From IMG/VR virus record IMGVR_UViG_3300038566_000387, positions 1 to 26,353 of that record: a stretch of 26,353 nt of DNA, one strand, 5' to 3'. Numbering within the stretch: the stretch's first letter is position 1; every line of letters begins with the position of its first letter. Positions 1 to 26,353 of the stretch are shown here, one piece after another. The position numbers and the translations under genes were made by a program. The DNA comes from a virus. Below the pieces are notes generated by a model. It did not search any database and was not told the DNA's origin. It was given only the letters and a program-made list of their open reading frames with translations.

Positions 1-3000
1 CCAGAGATTAAGTGCTGGGTTGAGGTTTCAGTGTAAGGTGTATTGAGAGGTTGACCAAAAGAGTTGGTGCCACGGACCACGTCAGCGATAGCAGAGAAAG
101 GACCACCAAGATTTGAGAATGGGCCAGTAAAAAATCTGATACCACCTTCCTCTGAGGTTGGGACGCCAAAGAACTTGGCCATATCAACATACTTGAATGA
201 GCCATCGTCTTCTTGTCCCAGGGTAATAACAAAAGGATTTCCTTTTAAGTAGGAAGGCTTTTGCTCTTCTGCTTTATCGGCCAAGTCAGGGTGCCTTAAG
301 TCCCATTGCATATTCCAGGCACGTGGAGCTAGGAAGAAAGGTATAAGGCGCCAAGGTTTTTCAGCAGCAGTGTTGACAAACATTCTGCCATACATTACAG
401 GGAAAGAAAGGAATGGCACGATGGTATCAAGGACTGGAGTGTTCTTAAAGAACTGAACAAACTTAGGAGCTAGGTCATAATTAAGATGGTATTTGTCAGC
501 AATCTGCATGGCCTCCACCGCAGAGTAACCTTTATCAGTTTTGTTTAAGAAGGTCGCATACTTATTGAATGCGTCTAGTGAACCAAAGTTTTTACCAATA
601 TCTTCCAATTTATCTGAACCTTTGACCACAATGTTGTAGAGTTTGTCGGCTAAAGTATCAGCACTCTTTACATTCTCGAAGGCTTCACCAATACCCTGTA
701 AAACAACGGAATCAACGAAGGTGGATTGTCGGCCACCTAAAGATAAAAACTCTTGGAGCTTAGGGGACAGGACCTTGCCTGTGCGGATAAATTCAGGAAA
801 CTCTTTGGCGGCTTGCTTAAAGTATTTCCAGTTGCCAGGATTAAAAGGAGAGTTGCCAGCTAAGGTTTGCATTCCCAAAAGACCAGACATAAAGTTGGTT
901 CCCCAAACAGGGATATTCAAAACAGTGCGGGAAGCACGCCAGATAGCACCATACCAGGAGATAATGCCTGGAATATCTGAAACTAATTTGTCGTAGGAGA
1001 ATTCTTTCTCGAAAGATTTGGCGATGTCAGAGCGAATGAACTTACCAGCCAAAGGACCAAAGCGTTTGTCTTCAGGGATTTTGGAGAAACCTTCCACAAA
1101 AGTATTGGAGAATAGGTCAGGTCTGTCGCCAATAAGGTTGAGAGTTTTTATATCAGTCCATTGATTTGTCAGGTAATTGATGGTGCGTCCAACTGAGCGC
1201 TCACCTTCAGTGACGTAGCCACGAAGTTCCTTAACTCTTCGGCCCAACTCAGCAATAGCTGAGGTATCACCAGCATTGACTTTGTCAATGAGGTCCTGAG
1301 GAATCTTGCTGGCCTTTGAAACAGTGGCTTGCATTTTAGAGTTGAGGGCTTGAAGATAAGCAGTTCCCCATTCTTGGTCAGATAATTTCTTTTTAGCTGA
1401 GGAGAATGAAATTGCCACATCATTGGCAATATCCATGTCAAGGTTGGTGTCGGGTAATTCCTGAGCAGCTTTGTCGTAGAAAGTGCGAACATATTTTTTA
1501 ATGTTGGTGGCAAATTGTTCTGGCTGAACCAGTCTCATTTGTTTAGCTTTTTCAAGGGTGATGAATCCGTTTTGTACAGCTTGGTCCAATTCTTTTTCAT
1601 ACATCAAAACATTGGCGGCAATCTCTTCGTGGACCTTATTAAAGGCAGAGCTAAGCTCATCAACCTTGGGCAAAATGTCTTCACCTAATTGAATACCAGT
1701 AACACCTTTCTTGGACAGTTCCAATTCTTTTTGAAAGTCACCACGCAATAAAGCGCCAGTCTCTTCGCCAGACATAACACGGCCAAGGATTTTCTCAGCC
1801 TCCTGTTTGGCTTGCTGATAAAGAAGGGAGGTTTTAGATTCAAAAGCAATCTTGGCTCTTTCAATTCCCTGAAGTTCCTGGTCAAGTGGCAGGTCAGAAA
1901 CTTTATACTTAAAGAGGTTTTGCCAGAAATCAGTGAGAGGTGAGAGCTTGTCATTGGCAATTCTTTTAACGGTTTCAACTCCTTGCTGCCAGATATTCTG
2001 AAGAGGGTTTTTATCTAATTCTTTTAAGGCTGTCTTGAATTGTTGAGCCAGCTCGTCATTGGCGGTGGCTGCGTCAAGGGCTTTGTCGATGAATCCTTCA
2101 GTGTCAGCTTTGAATGCGGCAGTGCGAGCGTCTTGTAAAAATTGTCCGAACTCTGGTCCAAATTTTCTTAGTTCTTCTGTGGCTGAGGGTAAACGAATTG
2201 GAATGTCACCAGCAGGTAAAATGTTTTCAGCTAGGTCGGGAAGTGTTTTGTTCTTTTTAAGGAAGTCTCTGATTTCTTTGCCAGTCATTTTGATTTTCTC
2301 GCCAGAGATTTTTCCTGGGATAGCTTTAATTTCTTGGCCAAGGTCAGTGGCAATGTCGCCAGCTTTCTCAACAACCTCGTCGGTTTTATTGACAATGTTT
2401 CCTAGATTTACTTTTCCTTTAGCCGCAGCAGCCTTGACTGTTTCAATAATCTTTTCTGTTTTCTTGGAAATCTCTGGTAAAACATCATTAAAGTTTTTGC
2501 CGATATTGATTAAGAGTTCGTTGGTTTTTGGTTTGGCTTGGAGGGTAAATCCATCACCAATTAAAGGAGTACCTTTCTTAAATTTGGAGAGGAGAGTTTT
2601 TTCTATGTTCAAATTGCTGATAGTGTCAAGGGCTTTGGTTAAATCAATGTTGACAATGTCGGAACCAGTGGATAAATCAACAGGCTTAACTTTGAAAGCG
2701 TTCTTAAGAAAGGTAACAAGTTCTTCTGCTTTACTGATTTTAACAGCGTCATCTACTTTGTTCAAAAGTTTTTCAGCCGTTTTCTTTTCACCACCTGGAC
2801 CAGGCGCCGCAATCTCAGCAGTTAAACCAACAACAAGCCCAGGAAAAGAGTTTGGGTCTAGGCCAGCAGTCTTAGGAACTTCTTCCATTAGCGCTTGTTT
2901 TTGGGTGACACCTCTGACAACACCTGGAAGTATTGGGTGAATCAATTCGCCGATGTCTGTCTTCTTGCCTTTGTCGGCACCAGATATTTGAGTAAGTTTT

Positions 3001-3368
3001 ATTCCAGTTGAAGGAGCTTGATAGTTTCCCTGTTCAAATTCGCGGCCAGCTTTGATGGCACCGCCAAGCATATAAGAAGGAAGATTCAAAACTTCAAGGC
3101 CAGCCCTTGCTGTTTTAACGGCGGGGTTGACTACATTTTGTACGGGTTGAGGCAGGCTTTTAGTGATACCAACAGGCTGGTCAAGTTTTAACCAAGAGCC
3201 AATACTCTTTGGAATTGAGGCAATAGCTTTAACAGTATTTGTTATCGGTGCTGGGATATTGACCTTAATATCGGGGACTTTAATCTTAGACAAAACATTG
3301 CCGAGGCCGTTTTTTTCCTCATCATCTTTTGGTCTAAAACCAATTGCTTTCAGTAAGTTGCTTGCCAT
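1..3368 (-). CDS. Large polyvalent virion-associated protein, C-terminus beyond the window
   Basis: An open frame runs from the ATG at 3366-3368 to the left edge without a stop, giving at least 1122 residues; the C-terminus is missing. The first ~600 residues are hydrophilic, Lys/Glu-rich and helical, with an early stretch rich in Val, Ile and Pro. From about residue 770 the sequence changes to a compact domain with FGPLAGKF, then WRASRTVLNIPVWGTNF, and further on PFLSFPVMYGRMF followed by KPWRLIPFF. This order resembles the LPD38-type domain of phage polyvalent proteins, giant proteins packaged in the head and injected with DNA (established for the family, recalled and not searched). It lies just downstream of the 554-aa coiled-coil gene, fitting an internal-virion/ejection pair. 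An excellent promoter abuts the start codon. No protease or polymerase motif was seen in the visible part. The gene call is secure; the family name is moderate. Confidence 0.75.
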   Translation of the reverse strand, partial: MASNLLKAIGFRPKDDEEKNGLGNVLSKIKVPDIKVNIPAPITNTVKAIASIPKSIGSWLKLDQPVGITKSLPQPVQNVVNPAVKTARAGLEVLNLPSYMLGGAIKAGREFEQGNYQAPSTGIKLTQISGADKGKKTDIGELIHPILPGVVRGVTQKQALMEEVPKTAGLDPNSFPGLVVGLTAEIAAPGPGGEKKTAEKLLNKVDDAVKISKAEELVTFLKNAFKVKPVDLSTGSDIVNIDLTKALDTISNLNIEKTLLSKFKKGTPLIGDGFTLQAKPKTNELLINIGKNFNDVLPEISKKTEKIIETVKAAAAKGKVNLGNIVNKTDEVVEKAGDIATDLGQEIKAIPGKISGEKIKMTGKEIRDFLKKNKTLPDLAENILPAGDIPIRLPSATEELRKFGPEFGQFLQDARTAAFKADTEGFIDKALDAATANDELAQQFKTALKELDKNPLQNIWQQGVETVKRIANDKLSPLTDFWQNLFKYKVSDLPLDQELQGIERAKIAFESKTSLLYQQAKQEAEKILGRVMSGEETGALLRGDFQKELELSKKGVTGIQLGEDILPKVDELSSAFNKVHEEIAANVLMYEKELDQAVQNGFITLEKAKQMRLVQPEQFATNIKKYVRTFYDKAAQELPDTNLDMDIANDVAISFSSAKKKLSDQEWGTAYLQALNSKMQATVSKASKIPQDLIDKVNAGDTSAIAELGRRVKELRGYVTEGERSVGRTINYLTNQWTDIKTLNLIGDRPDLFSNTFVEGFSKIPEDKRFGPLAGKFIRSDIAKSFEKEFSYDKLVSDIPGIISWYGAIWRASRTVLNIPVWGTNFMSGLLGMQTLAGNSPFNPGNWKYFKQAAKEFPEFIRTGKVLSPKLQEFLSLGGRQSTFVDSVVLQGIGEAFENVKSADTLADKLYNIVVKGSDKLEDIGKNFGSLDAFNKYATFLNKTDKGYSAVEAMQIADKYHLNYDLAPKFVQFFKNTPVLDTIVPFLSFPVMYGRMFVNTAAEKPWRLIPFFLAPRAWNMQWDLRHPDLADKAEEQKPSYLKGNPFVITLGQEDDGSFKYVDMAKFFGVPTSEEGGIRFFTGPFSNLGGPFSAIADVVRGTNSFGQPLNTPYTETSTQHLIS

Positions 3369-3375
3369 TACTTAC

Positions 3376-3405
3376 ATTATAGCCACTTTCGGGGATATAA
3401 CTCAA
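3376..3405 (-). promoter_or_regulatory. Promoter of the polyvalent protein gene (leaderless)
   Basis: On the minus strand TTGAGT (3400-3405), an 18-nt spacer and a perfect TATAAT (3376-3381). The -10 box ends 7 nt before the ATG, so transcription should start at or next to the start codon. It occupies nearly all of the 51-bp gap between two minus-strand genes. Confidence 0.7.
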
Positions 3406-3419
3406 TTGGTGAGTGCCAA

Positions 3420-5084
3420 TTAAAAAGCAGATTTGATAGCGTTTATGATTCCACTGAGACCACCAGTTTGCTGATTTGTCTGGGTAGTTTGCTGTTGTCC
3501 AGTTAGCTGAGAATAGATATTGCTGAGGGCTGGAGTGTTGTTTATCAAGTTGCTGGTCTCATTGTTTTTATTGAGGGTGCCATAGATATTGCCCGCTTGT
3601 TTTAAGAGTAGGTTAGTGGTACCACCAGCAGTGATTGGAATGTCAATCTCTTCACCAGTTGTCGGTAAGATACCGTGAACAGTTCCTCCAGTTATGTTTC
3701 CACTGGAATCTTTTTGAGCAATGATTTCTCCACCATTATCCAAGATACTGGCAGTAAGTTGGAATAATTGTTTTGCCTCATTGACTTTTGTGGTAGCGTT
3801 ACCAACAGAAGTTTTAGCGGCTTCAGCCACAGCAGTCTTGTATTGATAATCCATTTGGACCAACCACAAACCCCAAGCCATTTTCTTTTCAGAAATTTGA
3901 TTGGCAACGTTGACTCTAAGAGTGTCAGCTTGATTCATTGCAGATTCAATGGCGTCAAGTTTTTTATTGTAAGCCATTGTTTCTTGGCCCTGGATAGAAG
4001 AAATCTGTTGTCTTTCCCAAGAATCAATTTCTTTAATTTGATTATTGGTTTGGAAGTCAAGGTTAGATTTTTGTCTGGTATAGAACTTCACGGTCTCGTC
4101 GACAGCGTCAGAGAAATCTTGTAGAGCAGCAGTGGACTTGGTAGCAATGGCACGGAGACCAGTATTAAAGTTAAGAAGTAAATCAGATTCTTTACCTGCG
4201 GCAAAAGCTGAATCAGAAACTCCTCTGGCCCGCATAATCCTTTGCATTTCCAAAGACATATCTCTCCAGTTTCGAGCTAAGGTTTCAACAGTTTGACTGG
4301 TTTCTTCTTTGAAGGCTTCCTTTTCTTTACCAATGGCTTTAGTTTCCTGTTCTTCTTTAGCGGTGAGGTCAGCTTCAGTTAAGGTTTTTTGTTCTTTAGC
4401 AGCGGTTCTTTGTTCTTCAGCGGTCATTTTGGCTTCCTCTTTTTGTCCACCGAGGATTCCTAAAATGCTTTGATACTCACGGTCAGCAGCGGCAACAGCT
4501 CTTTCTTCAATAGCTCTGGCTAAAGTTTCAGTATCGCCAGTAACTTCTTCACCGTATTGTTTAATAAGGTCAGAAAGGTCAGTGTCTTTCAGGTATTGAC
4601 TACCAGGAGTTTTGGCGATGATGTCACTGGTCTTAACTTTAGGAGTAGTACCACCGTTATTGGAACCTCCAAGATTCCAACCAGTATAACCACCAGCAGC
4701 AATGTTAGCCATAATAGCGTTTTGGTCTGTCCACCCACGATTTTTATATTCTTGAATAAGTTGGTCAGTTGAAAGTTGTTGGCCAGAATTTGTTGGTTGA
4801 GGATTATTGGTGGCTTTAATAGTAGGAGCAGCGGCAGAATTAAAGCCAGAACGTTCAGCGGCCTTTTGTTCAATAGCGGCTTTTTGTTGAGGAGTAGTGG
4901 CCTGTTGGGATTGGGAATAACCACCAATTGATTCTAATTGTTGAGAAATACCATAGTCTGGCAACGGATTACCCAAAGCTTTACCAACAACGTCAATAAC
5001 CTTACCGACTTTACCAGCTATGTTAGCCGCAGTTGGGTTTGAAGTAATTGCACTGAGAACTCTGTTTGAAAGTGAATCTGCCAT
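3420..5084 (-). CDS. Coiled-coil virion-interior (ejection-type) protein, 554 aa
   Basis: Complete 554-aa protein. The first ~130 residues are Ala/Gln/Asn-rich and low in complexity, residues ~190-430 are strongly helical with Lys/Glu/Ala/Gln heptad-like runs, and the C-terminus is Gln/Thr/Asn-rich. No signal peptide or catalytic motif is visible. A central segment with ARGVSDSAFAAGKESDLLL is of a type seen in helical internal virion proteins of podoviruses (recalled resemblance only). Position directly before the giant polyvalent gene, on the same strand as the head and tail genes, supports an inner-capsid or ejection role; a tail-needle or tape-like role cannot be excluded. It has its own promoter and is divergent from the plus-strand accessory block. 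The ATG at 5082-5084 has no Shine-Dalgarno site, consistent with a leaderless start. Confidence 0.6.
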   Translation of the reverse strand: MADSLSNRVLSAITSNPTAANIAGKVGKVIDVVGKALGNPLPDYGISQQLESIGGYSQSQQATTPQQKAAIEQKAAERSGFNSAAAPTIKATNNPQPTNSGQQLSTDQLIQEYKNRGWTDQNAIMANIAAGGYTGWNLGGSNNGGTTPKVKTSDIIAKTPGSQYLKDTDLSDLIKQYGEEVTGDTETLARAIEERAVAAADREYQSILGILGGQKEEAKMTAEEQRTAAKEQKTLTEADLTAKEEQETKAIGKEKEAFKEETSQTVETLARNWRDMSLEMQRIMRARGVSDSAFAAGKESDLLLNFNTGLRAIATKSTAALQDFSDAVDETVKFYTRQKSNLDFQTNNQIKEIDSWERQQISSIQGQETMAYNKKLDAIESAMNQADTLRVNVANQISEKKMAWGLWLVQMDYQYKTAVAEAAKTSVGNATTKVNEAKQLFQLTASILDNGGEIIAQKDSSGNITGGTVHGILPTTGEEIDIPITAGGTTNLLLKQAGNIYGTLNKNNETSNLINNTPALSNIYSQLTGQQQTTQTNQQTGGLSGIINAIKSAF

Positions 5085-8192: not shown

Positions 8193-10409
<2,217 letters not shown>

Positions 10410-21332: not shown

Positions 21333-21660
21333 CCAGTCTCTTTTTGTTCTCGACAAAATCAGGAAACCACCTGACCCACTCGCTTTGCATATCCTTGCGA
21401 TAAAAAACAATCCCATCTTCTATTTTATAAAGATGAGGCGGGTGAAGTTTAATTCCGTGAGAGAAATTGTCCCTATGAACTTTACACTCAGCCATTCTGG
21501 TTGACTGGTCTATAATTTCATATCGACATTTGACAGCTTCAGCTTGAGTTAAACGAAAAGAAACCTGCTCTTTTGAGGTTTCAATTGTTCCCATTTTCTC
21601 GGCAACTTTCCAAGCCTGAGCTAAAGGTGATTCGGATTTTGGTTTAATTAGTGGTCTCAT
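21316..21660 (-). CDS. Hypothetical protein, 114 aa
   Basis: 114 residues, mixed alpha/beta, with many Lys and Arg. A central part (VSFRLTQAEAVKCRYEIIDQSTRMAECKV, positions ~33-62) and the aromatic C-terminal EWVRWFPDFVENKK are its notable parts. Its start overlaps the stop of the preceding gene by 4 nt (ATGA), so it is translationally coupled. No family is recognised; head-assembly function is only a guess from position. Confidence 0.6.
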   Translation of the reverse strand: MRPLIKPKSESPLAQAWKVAEKMGTIETSKEQVSFRLTQAEAVKCRYEIIDQSTRMAECKVHRDNFSHGIKLHPPHLYKIEDGIVFYRKDMQSEWVRWFPDFVENKKRLVDKTK

Positions 21661-22193
21661 TTTATTTTTTGAGCCTCTTCGTTTTCCTGAGTCGCTTTCT
21701 CTACCATAAAGATAGCGTCATCAAAAAACTTTCGACTGTCCTCTATCATTGATAATAAACCATTTTGAAAGCCCATGTAATAATCAAGAGATTGTTGATT
21801 ATCTCCCTTCCTAAATTCGGGGTGTCTTAAAGCAGCATATCCAATTTTTTCACATTTTTGGAGAAATTTTACAAAGTCTGAGTACCCTTCTGAATCGCAA
21901 AGTTTGGAGACCCTAAGGTTTCTTTGATAAACTCTTTCTTTTGCTTCTTGAATTCTTCCATCTTCTTTTTCTCGTAATCGTTTTCGTAGTGAGCTTTCCA
22001 CTCTTCGGCTGATTTTGGCTTCATTCCAAAGGCTTCTGGTGAAGTTTCCAAGATTTCTCCAGGTTTGGTGTCGTCTACGTTTAGCCTCCAATTCGGAATT
22101 TCTCTCAGACTCAGAAACGGAATCCCTCTTTTCCCTGTGCCAGAACATTTCTCGCACTTTAGTGAACCAGTTTTTATTTTCTTTGGTAGCCAT
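21657..22193 (-). CDS. Downstream frame of the zinc-ribbon gene, shifted by one base
   Basis: Open in the -1 frame relative to the zinc-ribbon frame, sharing 325 bp (21869-22193) with it. The first ~105 codons after the ATG at 22191-22193 read as an Arg/Lys/Glu-rich product of the kind expected from the wrong frame, whereas the last ~75 residues (DSEGYSDFVKFLQKCEKIGYAALRH, then YYMGFQNGLLSMIEDSRKFFDDAIF) look like a genuine helical domain. Its stop overlaps the next start by 4 nt (ATGA), the same arrangement as in all genes of this operon, so the true product probably starts at 22351 in the other frame and joins this frame near 21965. Either a programmed -1 frameshift or an assembly indel could produce this. 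An independent overlapping gene is less likely. Confidence 0.5.
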   Translation of the reverse strand: MATKENKNWFTKVREMFWHREKRDSVSESERNSELEAKRRRHQTWRNLGNFTRSLWNEAKISRRVESSLRKRLREKEDGRIQEAKERVYQRNLRVSKLCDSEGYSDFVKFLQKCEKIGYAALRHPEFRKGDNQQSLDYYMGFQNGLLSMIEDSRKFFDDAIFMVEKATQENEEAQKIK

Positions 22194-22351
22194 AAATTAT
22201 TTTTCCAACCACATTTGGAACAAGTAAACTTAACATTACTTAGATTATGACACTTTGGACATAGTTTTACAAGTTTCTTTGTCCCATTTGATTTGAAAAC
22301 CCAGGTTAAAATCAATTCAACTTTTGGGTGAATTAAACAAAATTCGGTCAT
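21869..22351 (-). CDS. Zinc-ribbon protein, upstream frame (apparent frameshift)
   Basis: 160 residues as read. Six cysteines form three pairs: C31-x2-C34, C44-x2-C47 and C66-x2-C69, a double zinc ribbon, followed by a charged domain with PGEILETSPEAFGMKPKSA and a Lys-rich helix (ENDYEKKKMEEFKKQKK). It starts in a 4-nt ATGA overlap with the portal gene, which fixes its start and links its translation. The frame runs out at 21869, whereas the coupling to the next gene lies at 21657 in a different frame, implying a frame change. A G-AAA-AAG heptamer in phase (21965-21971) is a candidate slip site. Position next to the portal suggests a head-assembly or packaging helper. Confidence 0.55.
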   Translation of the reverse strand: MTEFCLIHPKVELILTWVFKSNGTKKLVKLCPKCHNLSNVKFTCSKCGWKNNLWLPKKIKTGSLKCEKCSGTGKRGIPFLSLREIPNWRLNVDDTKPGEILETSPEAFGMKPKSAEEWKAHYENDYEKKKMEEFKKQKKEFIKETLGSPNFAIQKGTQTL

Positions 22352-24351
22352 TGTTGAGGTATATTTTCAACTGGAGGTAAATTTCCAGCGCCCATAATCG
22401 TTTCTAATGGATTTGGCTGCTCTACGGCCCCCTGGTCGCTTTGCATTACTGGACTTGTCCCTGGTTGAGGGGGTACTATTGGAGCGCCGCCAGGAACTTC
22501 AATTGGAGGATTTTGAGGATTTGCTTCAGCTGGAACCTTTTCTTTCTTGCTACGAGCCTCTTGAATCGCTTTAATCCAGTAAGGAGCGTCAGTAATTCCA
22601 TATCCTTGCAAGTATTTTAATAAGAATTTGTCGTAAACTTCAGAAGGTATTTGAGCAAAAGGTCCTTTCTCTGAAACAAATCTATCAGCCACGGAATTTA
22701 ATTTCATAGCTTCTGCCTGTTGGTCAATAACAGCTGAAGCGTTTGGCACAACCCGAATATCAATAAATCCTTTTATTGATTTCAAATCAGAAACTTTTGC
22801 ACTTCTTTCCACAATTTCACCAAATTGACCAAGCATTCTCTTTGTTCTGTCTTTATCCAAAAATTGCCTGGACATCTCCAAAATAAAATATCCAAGAGAT
22901 TTAAGAGCAACCTTTTCAAACATTCTCGACTTAACAATAAATCTAGCATTGGCAGCTTCTTGAACCAACCTCAAACCTCCATAAGTTCTTCCTGCTAAAG
23001 TAGAGCCTTCATCTCCTTTAACATAATCATTTACTCCTGTGACACGTTCAATTATTTTAATCAACTCATTGGCTTCAGTGAAGGCGTTGCCAGTGACATC
23101 ATTTCCTTTAATAGCCTTGACAGCCCTATCAACATCGGTGACTGAGGTAATTGAATTTGGAACAGGAACGAACTCATCATCTTCAGAAATATAATTTGAA
23201 TTGACCAACCAAAAATTAAGCATTGATTGAACCAAGTTATCGTAGCGCATATTCCACAAATCAGTGACGCCATCTTCCATTTTTTTAATAGCGTCAATAA
23301 CGCTTCGATTAAAATAAGAATGAGGCATTGGAGTGTCCCCGACAAAAATGAAGGGGTCAAACATACAATCGTAAGGACTTCTCATTCCACCCTCTGCTGT
23401 CAATTGATGTTTTTCATTGACAAAAACGTGGACAATTCCGTTTTCCCACATTTTGTCGACAATTAAAAGAGGAATTTTATCATCATCAGTAGTCAATGTT
23501 TTTTCTCCACCTGGGTCAGCAAAAAGTTCATAGTAGTCTTGCATAAAATCTTTTGGAATTTCAGAGGTAAAACCACCTTTTCCTTCATCAACTAAAGCAG
23601 CAATTTCTTGCATTTTTGCTTCGTTATAACCAAAAGCCTCTGCCTCGGAAGCTAGTTCTTCAAAAGTCATATAATCACGCTCGATTTTATATCTCATTCT
23701 TCCTGGCATATCAAAACCTTTGTCGGGGAAAAATAAGAAAAAAGGTTTGTGTTTAATATCAAAATCGTCTAAAACAGGGGAATCTTTTAATTTTTTGGTC
23801 CACCTAACGTCACCTTCCTTGTTTACTTCTTTAGCCGTCTTCAAAACATCGACTGCGTTTTCTTCTTCAACAATTCCAGCTGGTTCCAGGTTGGCCAAAT
23901 ACATTGCCGCCTTTCTTGTTTCTCGGCGCCACAAAGGTCTTAAAACAGCATTTCCAGTGATAATAGCTTCCTTTACCCCTTTCAATAATTTAAGGTAAAT
24001 AGGCTCGCCTAGTAACTCTAATTTTGGATTTTCATATTCAATTTGGATAATTGATTTCGCAGATTGTTCATAAGGCACGTCTTCTGGTTCCTCAGCTATG
24101 GCAGTATATTCAGGGTCTTTACCAATAATTCTTGGAATAGTTGTCTCCACAATATCATTTGAAAGAGGAATAACCATTGTTGATTGAAACGGATAGTCAC
24201 CCTCAGAAATACCACCAACATCAAGCCGACCCAAATAGTGCTTATAATTATCAATTGACCTTGTCCAGTGTGGTTCACAAAAATCTCTCGATTCCTTCAG
24301 CCTTTTTTTGTATCTGTCTAGTGTTGATATTGTTTTGCTTGTGTAATTCAT
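22348..24351 (-). CDS. Portal protein (P22/SU10-like)
   Basis: 667 residues, the size of podoviral portals. It has the N-terminal tyrosine-rich helix (YTSKTISTLDRYKKRLKES), YPFQSTMVIPLSNDIVETTIPRIIG, a GNAVLRPLW strand typical of the wing, VTDLWNMRYDNLVQSMLNFW in the stem region, and an alpha-helical C-terminal crown. The last ~65 residues are Pro/Gln-rich and likely disordered. Portal forms the dodecameric ring through which DNA enters and leaves the capsid. It overlaps terL by 4 nt upstream and the zinc-ribbon gene by 4 nt downstream, so the three are one translational unit. Order terminase-portal-scaffold-capsid is canonical. Confidence 0.85.
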   Translation of the reverse strand: MNYTSKTISTLDRYKKRLKESRDFCEPHWTRSIDNYKHYLGRLDVGGISEGDYPFQSTMVIPLSNDIVETTIPRIIGKDPEYTAIAEEPEDVPYEQSAKSIIQIEYENPKLELLGEPIYLKLLKGVKEAIITGNAVLRPLWRRETRKAAMYLANLEPAGIVEEENAVDVLKTAKEVNKEGDVRWTKKLKDSPVLDDFDIKHKPFFLFFPDKGFDMPGRMRYKIERDYMTFEELASEAEAFGYNEAKMQEIAALVDEGKGGFTSEIPKDFMQDYYELFADPGGEKTLTTDDDKIPLLIVDKMWENGIVHVFVNEKHQLTAEGGMRSPYDCMFDPFIFVGDTPMPHSYFNRSVIDAIKKMEDGVTDLWNMRYDNLVQSMLNFWLVNSNYISEDDEFVPVPNSITSVTDVDRAVKAIKGNDVTGNAFTEANELIKIIERVTGVNDYVKGDEGSTLAGRTYGGLRLVQEAANARFIVKSRMFEKVALKSLGYFILEMSRQFLDKDRTKRMLGQFGEIVERSAKVSDLKSIKGFIDIRVVPNASAVIDQQAEAMKLNSVADRFVSEKGPFAQIPSEVYDKFLLKYLQGYGITDAPYWIKAIQEARSKKEKVPAEANPQNPPIEVPGGAPIVPPQPGTSPVMQSDQGAVEQPNPLETIMGAGNLPPVENIPQQ

Positions 24352-26336
24352 TTTTTGAATACCCTATAAGGGACCATTAACTTTTTTTTCTTTTTTACTG
24401 GCCTCTCACCATCATTATACATTTTTTTGTCACGTGTTTCATAGTTGTCAAGTAACCACAAACCCATAGCAATTGTCTTGATTCTTTGGCCACTTCCGAA
24501 GCTCATTATGAGCCTGTCCTCCTCAACCCCAATCAATTCTGCCATCTCGTTTAACAAAACATCATCAGGTATTTTAACGTGGACACCATCAACCAATCCC
24601 TTAAAATAATCAATAGCCAGTGGTAAGTTTGAAGAAGAAATGACGATACCTTCCTCTAAAATTGGTCTACCTTCTTTATCTGGCTGCATACATAAAAGAT
24701 TTGGATAATTTCTTTTTTGAAGCTCAATATAAATTGCCTGGCCTTCATTGTTTCTATCGTGAACAATTTGAGCATTGTTAAAGAATCTCCCAGCTTTCTC
24801 AATTAAAGAAACCCAGGCTAGTGCTGTCAAATCTCCCTCTATCTTTCCAACAATTTCGCTGGTGTGCTTTTCAATTATGTAGGCGACAGACCTTTCTGCT
24901 CTGGTGCAAAAAAGCATAAACCTCTCATCTTTTCCAAAGAAAGGTTTCCCAGATGTCGCAAAAGTATTATCAAAAGCTCCTTCAACTGGTCTAAAAATAT
25001 GAACAAGAGAATTATTCGCAAATCTAAAAACTGGTGGATTATACCCAAGTAAAACAATCTTCCTTGAAGCTGTGATATTTTTCAAATGCTCCACCAGAGC
25101 ATTATTGGCAAAAAATCCCTTATTATCTTTCAATTTAGCGTCAAACTCTTTTAAGACACCAAGAGCAAACCAGGAAGCCATCAATTCATCTCCTGCGTGT
25201 TGGTCGTCGGTATAAATAGACATTTGATAAAGAAGGCTGGCTATCCTCTTGTAATAATCAGGATTTTGCATTCCGCCTGGAATAATTACTTTTCCTTGTT
25301 CTAAAAGCATGGCAATGTGCGCCAAACCTGTTTCTTCTGAGTATTTCTTGATACCAGTAGTATGAAAACCTTCTATTGGAATTTCGTCATTAGCAAGCTC
25401 TTGCCTCAACATATCCTGAAAGGCAACGTTTTCAACACGAATCTTTACTGGCTTAAAAGCATAATACATATCCAATACTCGCTGTTTTGTTTCTTCAGGA
25501 GACCATCGACCAGATTCAAGGTAAAGCAAAATTCTCTCTCTCCTGTCGCTCAAACCCCAGACAGCAATAGCAGTTTTGTCGGCAGTGTTTCTTTTTGAAA
25601 TAGCCAAATCAACTCCAATTGCCACAATCAAATGACCCCAGGAATCGTAGACTGGCTTTAAGTTGTCCCATTCAGGAACAAGAGTTTTTGAACCGCCTTT
25701 GTCAGTAGCCTCTTTCAAATACTGTTCCTTAAACAATCTCTCTTCCTCGCTCATTGGTTCATTCAAGTATTGACGCATAAAAGAGGAAGCTGACCCCTTG
25801 GCCCTTTTCTCCATCAATTTTTCAAAATTCCATTTATCTGGCCACAAAGTTCCATTCTTAAGTCTGCTCCAAAGGTGGTATCTCTTGACCAATTCCTCTG
25901 ATAGTAAATCTTGAATCCTAAGTGCCTGAGGAAATTGATGAAGATTATATGGAAGATACAGTTTATTTCCACCTTTAGTAGTGTCTCCTCGGTCAATAAA
26001 ATAACCAGAATGATAAACAAGAGCTTTCAGTTTTACTCGAACATCGTACTCAGTATTGTTCAAAAGTGTGTCGTAAATATCGTTCTTGTACCAAATGGTC
26101 CCAGCTACAACCACCCTTCCATTATCTTCCAAAATTGGTAACAAAACATTTTCCCACCACTCCAATGTTTTCTGCCTCATTCTCGGAGTCCTGGCGGTTT
26201 CAAGGTCAATAATATCATCGGCGATAATAATATCAGCACGCTTGGAAATCATCTTGCCGCCAAGACCAATAGCTGCAATTGTAGGGTCTTTCTCCATTGA
26301 AGAACGATTTACAATCATTGCCTTTTCACCCCAGCA
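24348..26336 (-). CDS. terL: Terminase large subunit with two RNase H-like domains, 5' end missing
   Basis: Numbering counts from the in-frame ATG at 26318, although coding continues to the amplification tag at 26337, so the N-terminus with Walker A is missing. Walker B (DIIIADDIID, 29-38) and coupling motif (VVVAGTIW, 69-76) are present. Nuclease domain 1 has Asp237 (AIGVDLAIS), Glu296 (RVENVAF) and Asp377 (GDELMAS), the expected acidic residues. A second RNase H-like domain spans residues ~465-625: GKIEGDLTALAWVSL, FFNNAQIVHDRNNEG with Asp521, and EEDRLIMSF with Asp601. It lacks the first Asp (LFCTR in its place). TerL cuts and translocates DNA into proheads. The gene overlaps portal by 4 nt. 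Ends in a Lys-rich tail. Confidence 0.85.
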   Translation of the reverse strand, partial: CWGEKAMIVNRSSMEKDPTIAAIGLGGKMISKRADIIIADDIIDLETARTPRMRQKTLEWWENVLLPILEDNGRVVVAGTIWYKNDIYDTLLNNTEYDVRVKLKALVYHSGYFIDRGDTTKGGNKLYLPYNLHQFPQALRIQDLLSEELVKRYHLWSRLKNGTLWPDKWNFEKLMEKRAKGSASSFMRQYLNEPMSEEERLFKEQYLKEATDKGGSKTLVPEWDNLKPVYDSWGHLIVAIGVDLAISKRNTADKTAIAVWGLSDRRERILLYLESGRWSPEETKQRVLDMYYAFKPVKIRVENVAFQDMLRQELANDEIPIEGFHTTGIKKYSEETGLAHIAMLLEQGKVIIPGGMQNPDYYKRIASLLYQMSIYTDDQHAGDELMASWFALGVLKEFDAKLKDNKGFFANNALVEHLKNITASRKIVLLGYNPPVFRFANNSLVHIFRPVEGAFDNTFATSGKPFFGKDERFMLFCTRAERSVAYIIEKHTSEIVGKIEGDLTALAWVSLIEKAGRFFNNAQIVHDRNNEGQAIYIELQKRNYPNLLCMQPDKEGRPILEEGIVISSSNLPLAIDYFKGLVDGVHVKIPDDVLLNEMAELIGVEEDRLIMSFGSGQRIKTIAMGLWLLDNYETRDKKMYNDGERPVKKKKKLMVPYRVFKK

Positions 26337-26353
26337 GATCGTGACTGGGAAAC
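26337..26353. other. Random-PCR amplification tag (artefact)
   Basis: The last 17 bases are GATCGTGACTGGGAAAC, the exact reverse complement of GTTTCCCAGTCACGATC, the tag used in round-A/round-B random PCR of viral metagenomes (established lab knowledge). It is not phage DNA. The nine bases before it (26328-26336) may derive from the random part of the primer and carry errors. Confidence 0.95.

Follow-up and report, generated by a model that had tools for sequence, protein, structure and literature searches.

The stretch of DNA analysed here, referred to as the window, is a virus record of 26,353 bases from IMG/VR, and its main subject is the gene for the large terminase subunit (terL, encoding TerL) at one end. 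The terL frame runs uninterrupted on the minus strand from 26351 to 24348 and encodes 667 amino acids; it is open at its 5' end, with the first ATG at 26318. Its product matches PHROG 38 (terminase large subunit) over residues 16-397 (3.8e-57) and is 55-65% identical to full-length relatives of 785-872 amino acids. The protein carries two nuclease domains behind its ATPase: the first, D1, is predicted to be catalytically complete, and the second, D2, is almost certainly a vestigial nuclease of a different subtype. The parts of the gene and its neighbour are as follows, with related contigs given as L numbers.

24348-26351, minus strand: TerL open reading frame, the Walker A half of the ATPase lying beyond the contig end (open frame; phrog_38; relatives)
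25695-26335, minus strand: what remains of the ATPase, including Walker B (ADIIIADD) and the C-terminal half of the domain (aligned with L002 and other relatives; L013 overlap)
25145-25689, minus strand: D1, RNase H-like nuclease, predicted to be catalytically complete (Terminase_6C; acids in 11/11)
24945-25118, minus strand: linker between D1 and D2, starting at GFFANN (lower identity; predicted local distance difference test (pLDDT) <50)
24438-24947, minus strand: D2, almost certainly a vestigial T4 gp17-type RNase H nuclease (hhalign, hidden Markov model (HMM), Foldseek, joint alignment with T4 gp17)
24351-24437, minus strand: C-terminal tail, rich in lysine; most members share a conserved end of the PYxVF[KR] kind (alignment of relatives)
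22348-24351, minus strand: portal protein, SU10/P22-like, its start codon overlapping the terL stop (Pfam SU10_portal, 2.9e-17; order the same in L002)

The terminase gene, its first nuclease domain and its relatives

Contig L013 contains the Walker A and the rest of the TerL N-terminus that the window lacks; the two overlap by 157 nt (26179-26335) at 100% identity. Beyond this overlap, the window's last 18 nt (26336-26353) depart from L013 and are probably an assembly edge of unreliable sequence. Walker A (PRFHAKS) and Walker B (ADIII[x]DD) are conserved in full-length relatives. With its Walker motifs, a three-carboxylate nuclease and an adjacent portal gene, the frame in the window is a Caudoviricetes large terminase.

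D1 is recognised by Pfam as Terminase_6C (TerL residues 245-372, 2.7e-06, above the curated cut-off), while the approximately 270 C-terminal residues beyond this match are without any Pfam family match. The acids of D1 lie in the motifs VDLAIS, VEN/VES/VET and HAGD or HAPD. They are retained in 11/11 sequences, and their partners in the alignment with T4 gp17 are its catalytic residues Asp401, Glu458 and Asp542 (PMC9958956). Counted from the open 5' end the D1 acids are Asp248 (nt 25608-25610), a Glu at about residue 307 and Asp388 (nt 25188-25190). An earlier description made from the sequence alone (the sequence-only reading) numbered them Asp237, Glu296 and Asp377 by counting from the ATG, and its claim that D1 has all the expected acidic residues is borne out by these alignments and by the Terminase_6C match. 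Judged by its residues, D1 is a normal, catalytically complete nuclease domain.

Translated searches of IMG/VR returned the relatives L002, L006, L007, L011, L012, L017, L019, L021, L038 (the other end of which is L022) and L039. In all eleven contigs, the window included, terL is one frame with both domains as far as each contig reaches. Identity to L002 is 56-66% over the ATPase and D1, and the D2s of the relatives are 46-57% identical to that of the window. The sequence-only reading had named a chimera of two terminases as the circumstance that would undo it; since the same continuous frame recurs in eleven contigs at approximately 50-65% identity, an assembly chimera is excluded. The L038/L022 contig, of 39,394 bases, has pieces of terL at both ends with a direct overlap inside the gene, as in a circularly closed genome.

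Mean pairwise identity is 0.63 for the ATPase, 0.68 for D1, 0.59 for D2 and 0.52 for the linker. Over D2, four pairs of sequences have 0.16-0.21 nonsynonymous differences per site versus 0.68-0.85 synonymous differences per site, the latter near saturation, and the ATPase gives the same result. Nonsynonymous change far below synonymous change indicates that an intact D2 has been selected for, so that D2, on this comparison, is under purifying selection and is not decaying. Together with the continuous frame in eleven contigs, this leaves a negligible probability that D2 is either an assembly product or a decaying remnant. L006 and L007 were unusable for this comparison because their linker and D2 are identical in DNA. 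Across the linker and D2, L006 1645-2388 and L007 657-1400 do not differ, in contrast to 74 of 654 bases that differ in or before D1; the pattern is that of a recombination tract ending near the boundary between D1 and the linker.

Fold, catalytic positions and origin of the second domain

The motifs of D2 follow one another in the order LFCTR, FFNNAQIVHDRNNEG, NYPNLL, SSNLPLAIDYFKGLV and EEDRLIMSF; all those quoted in the sequence-only reading are present, and in the order it gave. When the D2 family was compared by hhalign with twelve T4-type nuclease domains, the result was 98.2% with a score of 90.5. The T4-type terminase set, which includes T4 gp17 and independent phage groups, had been collected with L009 as the query, itself found through D2; with the two members found through D2 removed, the remaining ten domains still gave 97.5% and a score of 78.1. 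Controls scored far lower: at most 22.9 for 60 column shuffles, 15.1 for a reversed profile and 13.8 for the ATPase part of the same proteins. An HMM built from the ten T4-type domains scored all of the tested D2s (9/9) at 30.8-50.9 bits, against 3.5 bits for the best reversed decoy, and it scores D2 far above D1. The shuffled and reversed controls rule out a chance resemblance of D2 to T4-type nucleases.

A model of D2 was built with AlphaFold2 from ten sequences of the family only, without T4-type sequences. Its strands and helices run beta-beta-beta-alpha-beta-alpha-beta, as expected for RNase H folds. Foldseek placed the nucleases of T4 gp17, RB49 gp17 and the G20c terminase in the first ten PDB places (E values 2.3e-4 to 1.2e-3, probability 1.00), with low TM-scores (0.32-0.49), and in a viral library the named matches of D2 were mostly terminases. 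The low confidence of the model counts against the assignment (mean pLDDT 42.4, with residues 64-144 at about 47-72 and the core at 57-72). Pfam found no family in the D2 of the window when it was searched alone and only weak, unrelated ones in other members, and the D2 profile found nothing credible among PDB sequences, so that the evidence for the fold consists of profile-profile comparison and Foldseek. Every match to D2 that translated searches found outside the family is a large terminase, and the unrelated loci reached through D2 (L009, L023, L031, L048 and L049) all encode single-nuclease large terminases. The proposal that D2 repeats the T4 gp17-like nuclease fold is upheld by hhalign, HMM, Foldseek and strand order alike, and the absence of an RNase H fold, which would have spoken against it, is contradicted by the TerL nucleases among the Foldseek matches. 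D2 is almost certainly a vestigial T4-type nuclease domain.

In a joint alignment with T4 gp17, the loop at the Asp401 position is about five residues shorter in D2 and reads Thr-Arg in 11/11 sequences (Thr483-Arg in the window). The Glu458 position is acidic in 11/11, being Asp in the window (Asp532), L002, L017, L019, L021, L038 and L039, and Glu in L006, L007, L011 and L012. At the Asp542 position, for which there are ten sequences in all, the nine complete D2s have Gln (that of the window being Gln622) and the L022 piece has Tyr, the L038 contig ending before it. Thus the counterparts of Asp401 and Asp542 are absent from every member that reaches them. The sequence-only reading had the first Asp replaced (in LFCTR) and the Glu changed to Asp; the former holds, and the latter holds in the window and several relatives but not in the sub-clade with Glu. 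It had looked for the loss of at least one catalytic acid, and two of three are lost, the third-position change to Gln622 having escaped it.

By its residues D2 is a homologue of the T4 gp17-type fold that falls outside the active enzymes, and with two of its three metal-binding carboxylates gone, cleavage by the usual two-metal mechanism is not to be expected. It is highly improbable that D2 is still a nuclease by way of other residues. An acid is kept at the Glu458 position throughout, and further conserved Asp or Glu residues lie nearby (an EG motif), but the Asp401 loop is shortened, the Asp542 position is Gln (Tyr in L022), and Thr/Arg and Gln-Arg/Lys stand in the place of the acids.

The origin of D2 appears to be separate from that of D1. 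hhalign of D1 against D2 gives only 8% and a score of 25, slightly above the shuffle range, and hence D2 did not arise by recent copying of D1; tandem duplication of D1 is unsupported. The model of the full-length protein is closest to the T7-like PhiV-1 terminase (8dgc_E), and D2 alone is closest to the T4, RB49 and G20c nucleases. The 8% match, the separate nearest structures and the HMM preference all agree with the earlier suggestion that D2 is of a different subtype than D1. Terminases at about 25% identity (L003, L004, L005, L014 and L041) end shortly after D1, which makes D2 a lineage-specific C-terminal addition. The simplest reading of these sequences is that a T4-type nuclease domain was fused to the C-terminus of a T7-like terminase in an ancestor of the lineage and then lost catalysis.

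A search of 50,697 phage records yielded no chain with an active nuclease followed by a dead one; the matches to D2 there are weak and belong to single-nuclease terminases. Two peptide-pattern scans of bacterial and archaeal genomes returned no relatives. A limited literature search of open-access papers found no description of a double-nuclease terminase, in line with the remark in the sequence-only reading that it knew of no described case, although phi29 gp16 already provides an example of a vestigial terminase nuclease. Dead terminase nucleases and T4-type nucleases are each known; an active and a dead nuclease of different subtypes in one chain turned up in no cultured phage and no paper covered by these searches. 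The large terminase serves as a phylogenetic marker and is as a rule regarded as a protein of two fixed domains. The present family documents a route of domain gain in this protein, and a terminase tree built from the whole protein would mix two nuclease histories.

Neighbouring genes

In addition to the SU10-like portal, the window encodes an SU10-type major capsid protein, an amidase and a GroEL chaperonin (8491-10119, plus strand; phrog_5725, 2.9e-148). The 39.4-kb relative adds an SU10 adaptor, a Cpn10/GroES match, a DnaB-like helicase, a primase-polymerase and a single-stranded DNA-binding protein. Two genes on the minus strand of the window, 21657-22193 and 21869-22351, overlap by 325 nt in different frames; the products are a zinc-ribbon protein and one other protein. 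The arrangement recurs, with counterparts of both frames, in L002, L007, L011, L016, L017, L019, L039 and L051, and this points to a genuine, conserved pair of overlapping genes.

Directly upstream of terL there is a conserved opposite-strand gene with a TYIHxARN...FIDSDM motif, by eye reminiscent of GT-A glycosyltransferases. It is located as follows.

L013 4175-4858, L017 4359-5021 and L019 897-1592, minus strand: gene upstream of terL with the TYIHxARN...FIDSDM motif
L021 1777-2463, L038 5209-5892 and L039 5021-5737, minus strand: gene upstream of terL with the TYIHxARN...FIDSDM motif

L017 also encodes a collagen-like protein of GPTGATGPTG repeats near terL (2364-3188, minus strand). At the other end of the window (3-5084, minus strand) there are two large proteins, of more than 1,122 and of 554 amino acids, with no PHROGs or Pfam match.

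Possible roles of the second domain and known packaging systems

The part played by terminase nuclease domains in moving and holding DNA, and the direction in which they face, are debated. In T4 gp17, the C-domain has a second DNA groove that is used in translocation (PMC9958956); the C-terminal domain of phi29 gp16 is a vestigial terminase nuclease that is inactive and binds DNA and packaging RNA (pRNA) with a dissociation constant of ~3 uM (PMC7672431); and for HK97 a portal-facing orientation of the nuclease domain has been speculated (PMC9410871). By analogy with the T4 groove, the phi29 domain and the HK97 orientation, holding DNA near the portal is the likeliest of the roles considered for D2, and we tentatively put this forward as its main role. 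DNA gripping and portal docking were both raised in the sequence-only reading as uses that the extra domain could have, and both are plausible.

In the mechanism we propose, D1 would make the cuts that start and end packaging, and D2 would keep the non-catalytic jobs of a nuclease domain, serving as a passive clamp on DNA beside the translocating ring and helping to seat the motor on the portal, with the basic C-terminal tail as a possible anchor. Two invariant motifs, Thr-Arg and Gln-[Arg/Lys]-x-[Lys/Arg]-Thr, stand in place of the catalytic acids and might contact phosphates without metal, a suggestion with which their composition is compatible. As a whole, the explanation that D1 cuts and that the added D2 holds DNA and helps to seat the motor is, we infer, reasonably probable. 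The sharper version, in which the lineage has split the jobs of the nuclease domain within one chain, D1 cutting and a captured, silenced T4-type D2 gripping DNA at the portal, is more speculative. Two points weigh against DNA holding at the portal. The net charge of D2 ranges from -13 to +1, so that the domain is not globally basic and is no better in this respect than ordinary terminase nuclease domains; global charge is not supportive as evidence of DNA binding. In T4, moreover, portal-interacting residues have also been placed in a helix-loop-helix near the hinge, outside the nuclease domain (PMC9958956).

The next possibility for the main role is docking, in which D2 and the lysine-rich tail would attach the motor to the portal or procapsid, any contact with DNA being incidental. 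D2 and the conserved basic tail do lie at the C-terminus, and the terL and portal genes are adjacent throughout, but the portal is of the ordinary SU10/P22-like kind, which elsewhere would be partnered with a single-nuclease terminase, and we consider docking as the chief role unlikely. Some other main role altogether has a limited, slightly better chance.

Pseudo-enzymes can regulate their relatives, and D2, which retains a fold without its chemistry, resembles them in this. It might form a pseudo-dimer in cis with D1 and restrain or position it, holding back cleavage until the head is full, given that terminase nucleases need to be silenced during translocation and released at termination (models in PMC7672431). 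However, there is no sign of an interface between D1 and D2, the linker and inter-domain region being predicted at low confidence, and a symmetric dimer is not expected of domains of different subtypes, which makes this arrangement distinctly unlikely. It is still less probable that D2 has taken over part of the small terminase's role in choosing phage DNA. No small subunit was recognised: the 39.4-kb relative (G001) gave no Pfam small-terminase match, a search of six records with PF03592 found nothing, and the best 25 of 67 PHROGs families for G001 included none. A vestigial nuclease is also present in phi29, another phage that lacks a small subunit (PMC9410871). Small terminases are nevertheless too divergent for such an absence to count, and site-specific recognition is not a known property of nuclease folds in this setting.

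If DNA holding by D2 is correct, cutting and gripping could be studied apart from each other in one natural protein, and a terminase with a cutting and a non-cutting copy would allow the two roles to be separated by altering single domains.

Among known systems, the portal, major capsid and adaptor proteins match those of SU10-like (kuravirus-type) phages, but the collection of phage records, in which SU10-like isolates would be found, holds no match to D2. The ATPase and D1 belong to the sequence family of T7-like terminases (PhiV-1, T7 gp19; PHROG 38), with 8dgc_E as the best match of the full-length model; those proteins have one nuclease domain and then end, whereas here D2 follows. D2 resembles T4 gp17, RB49, G20c and P74-26 in its fold and in the order of its strands, and it has both their NNA-hydrophobic-acid-NNxxG motif and their downstream helices. 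Those nucleases cut DNA with the equivalents of Asp401, Glu458 and Asp542, of which D2 is without the first and third, and D2 comes second among the nuclease domains of its chain, not first as in T4 gp17. The closest parallel to its state is phi29 gp16, likewise a terminase nuclease fold kept in a packaging motor without its catalytic residues; an Rfam search of the window, an incomplete genome, gave no match to pRNA. In gp16 the vestigial domain is the sole C-terminal domain and no nuclease is left, whereas the dead D2 sits behind a complete D1 and, unlike the phi29 domain, is related to the T4 type by sequence.

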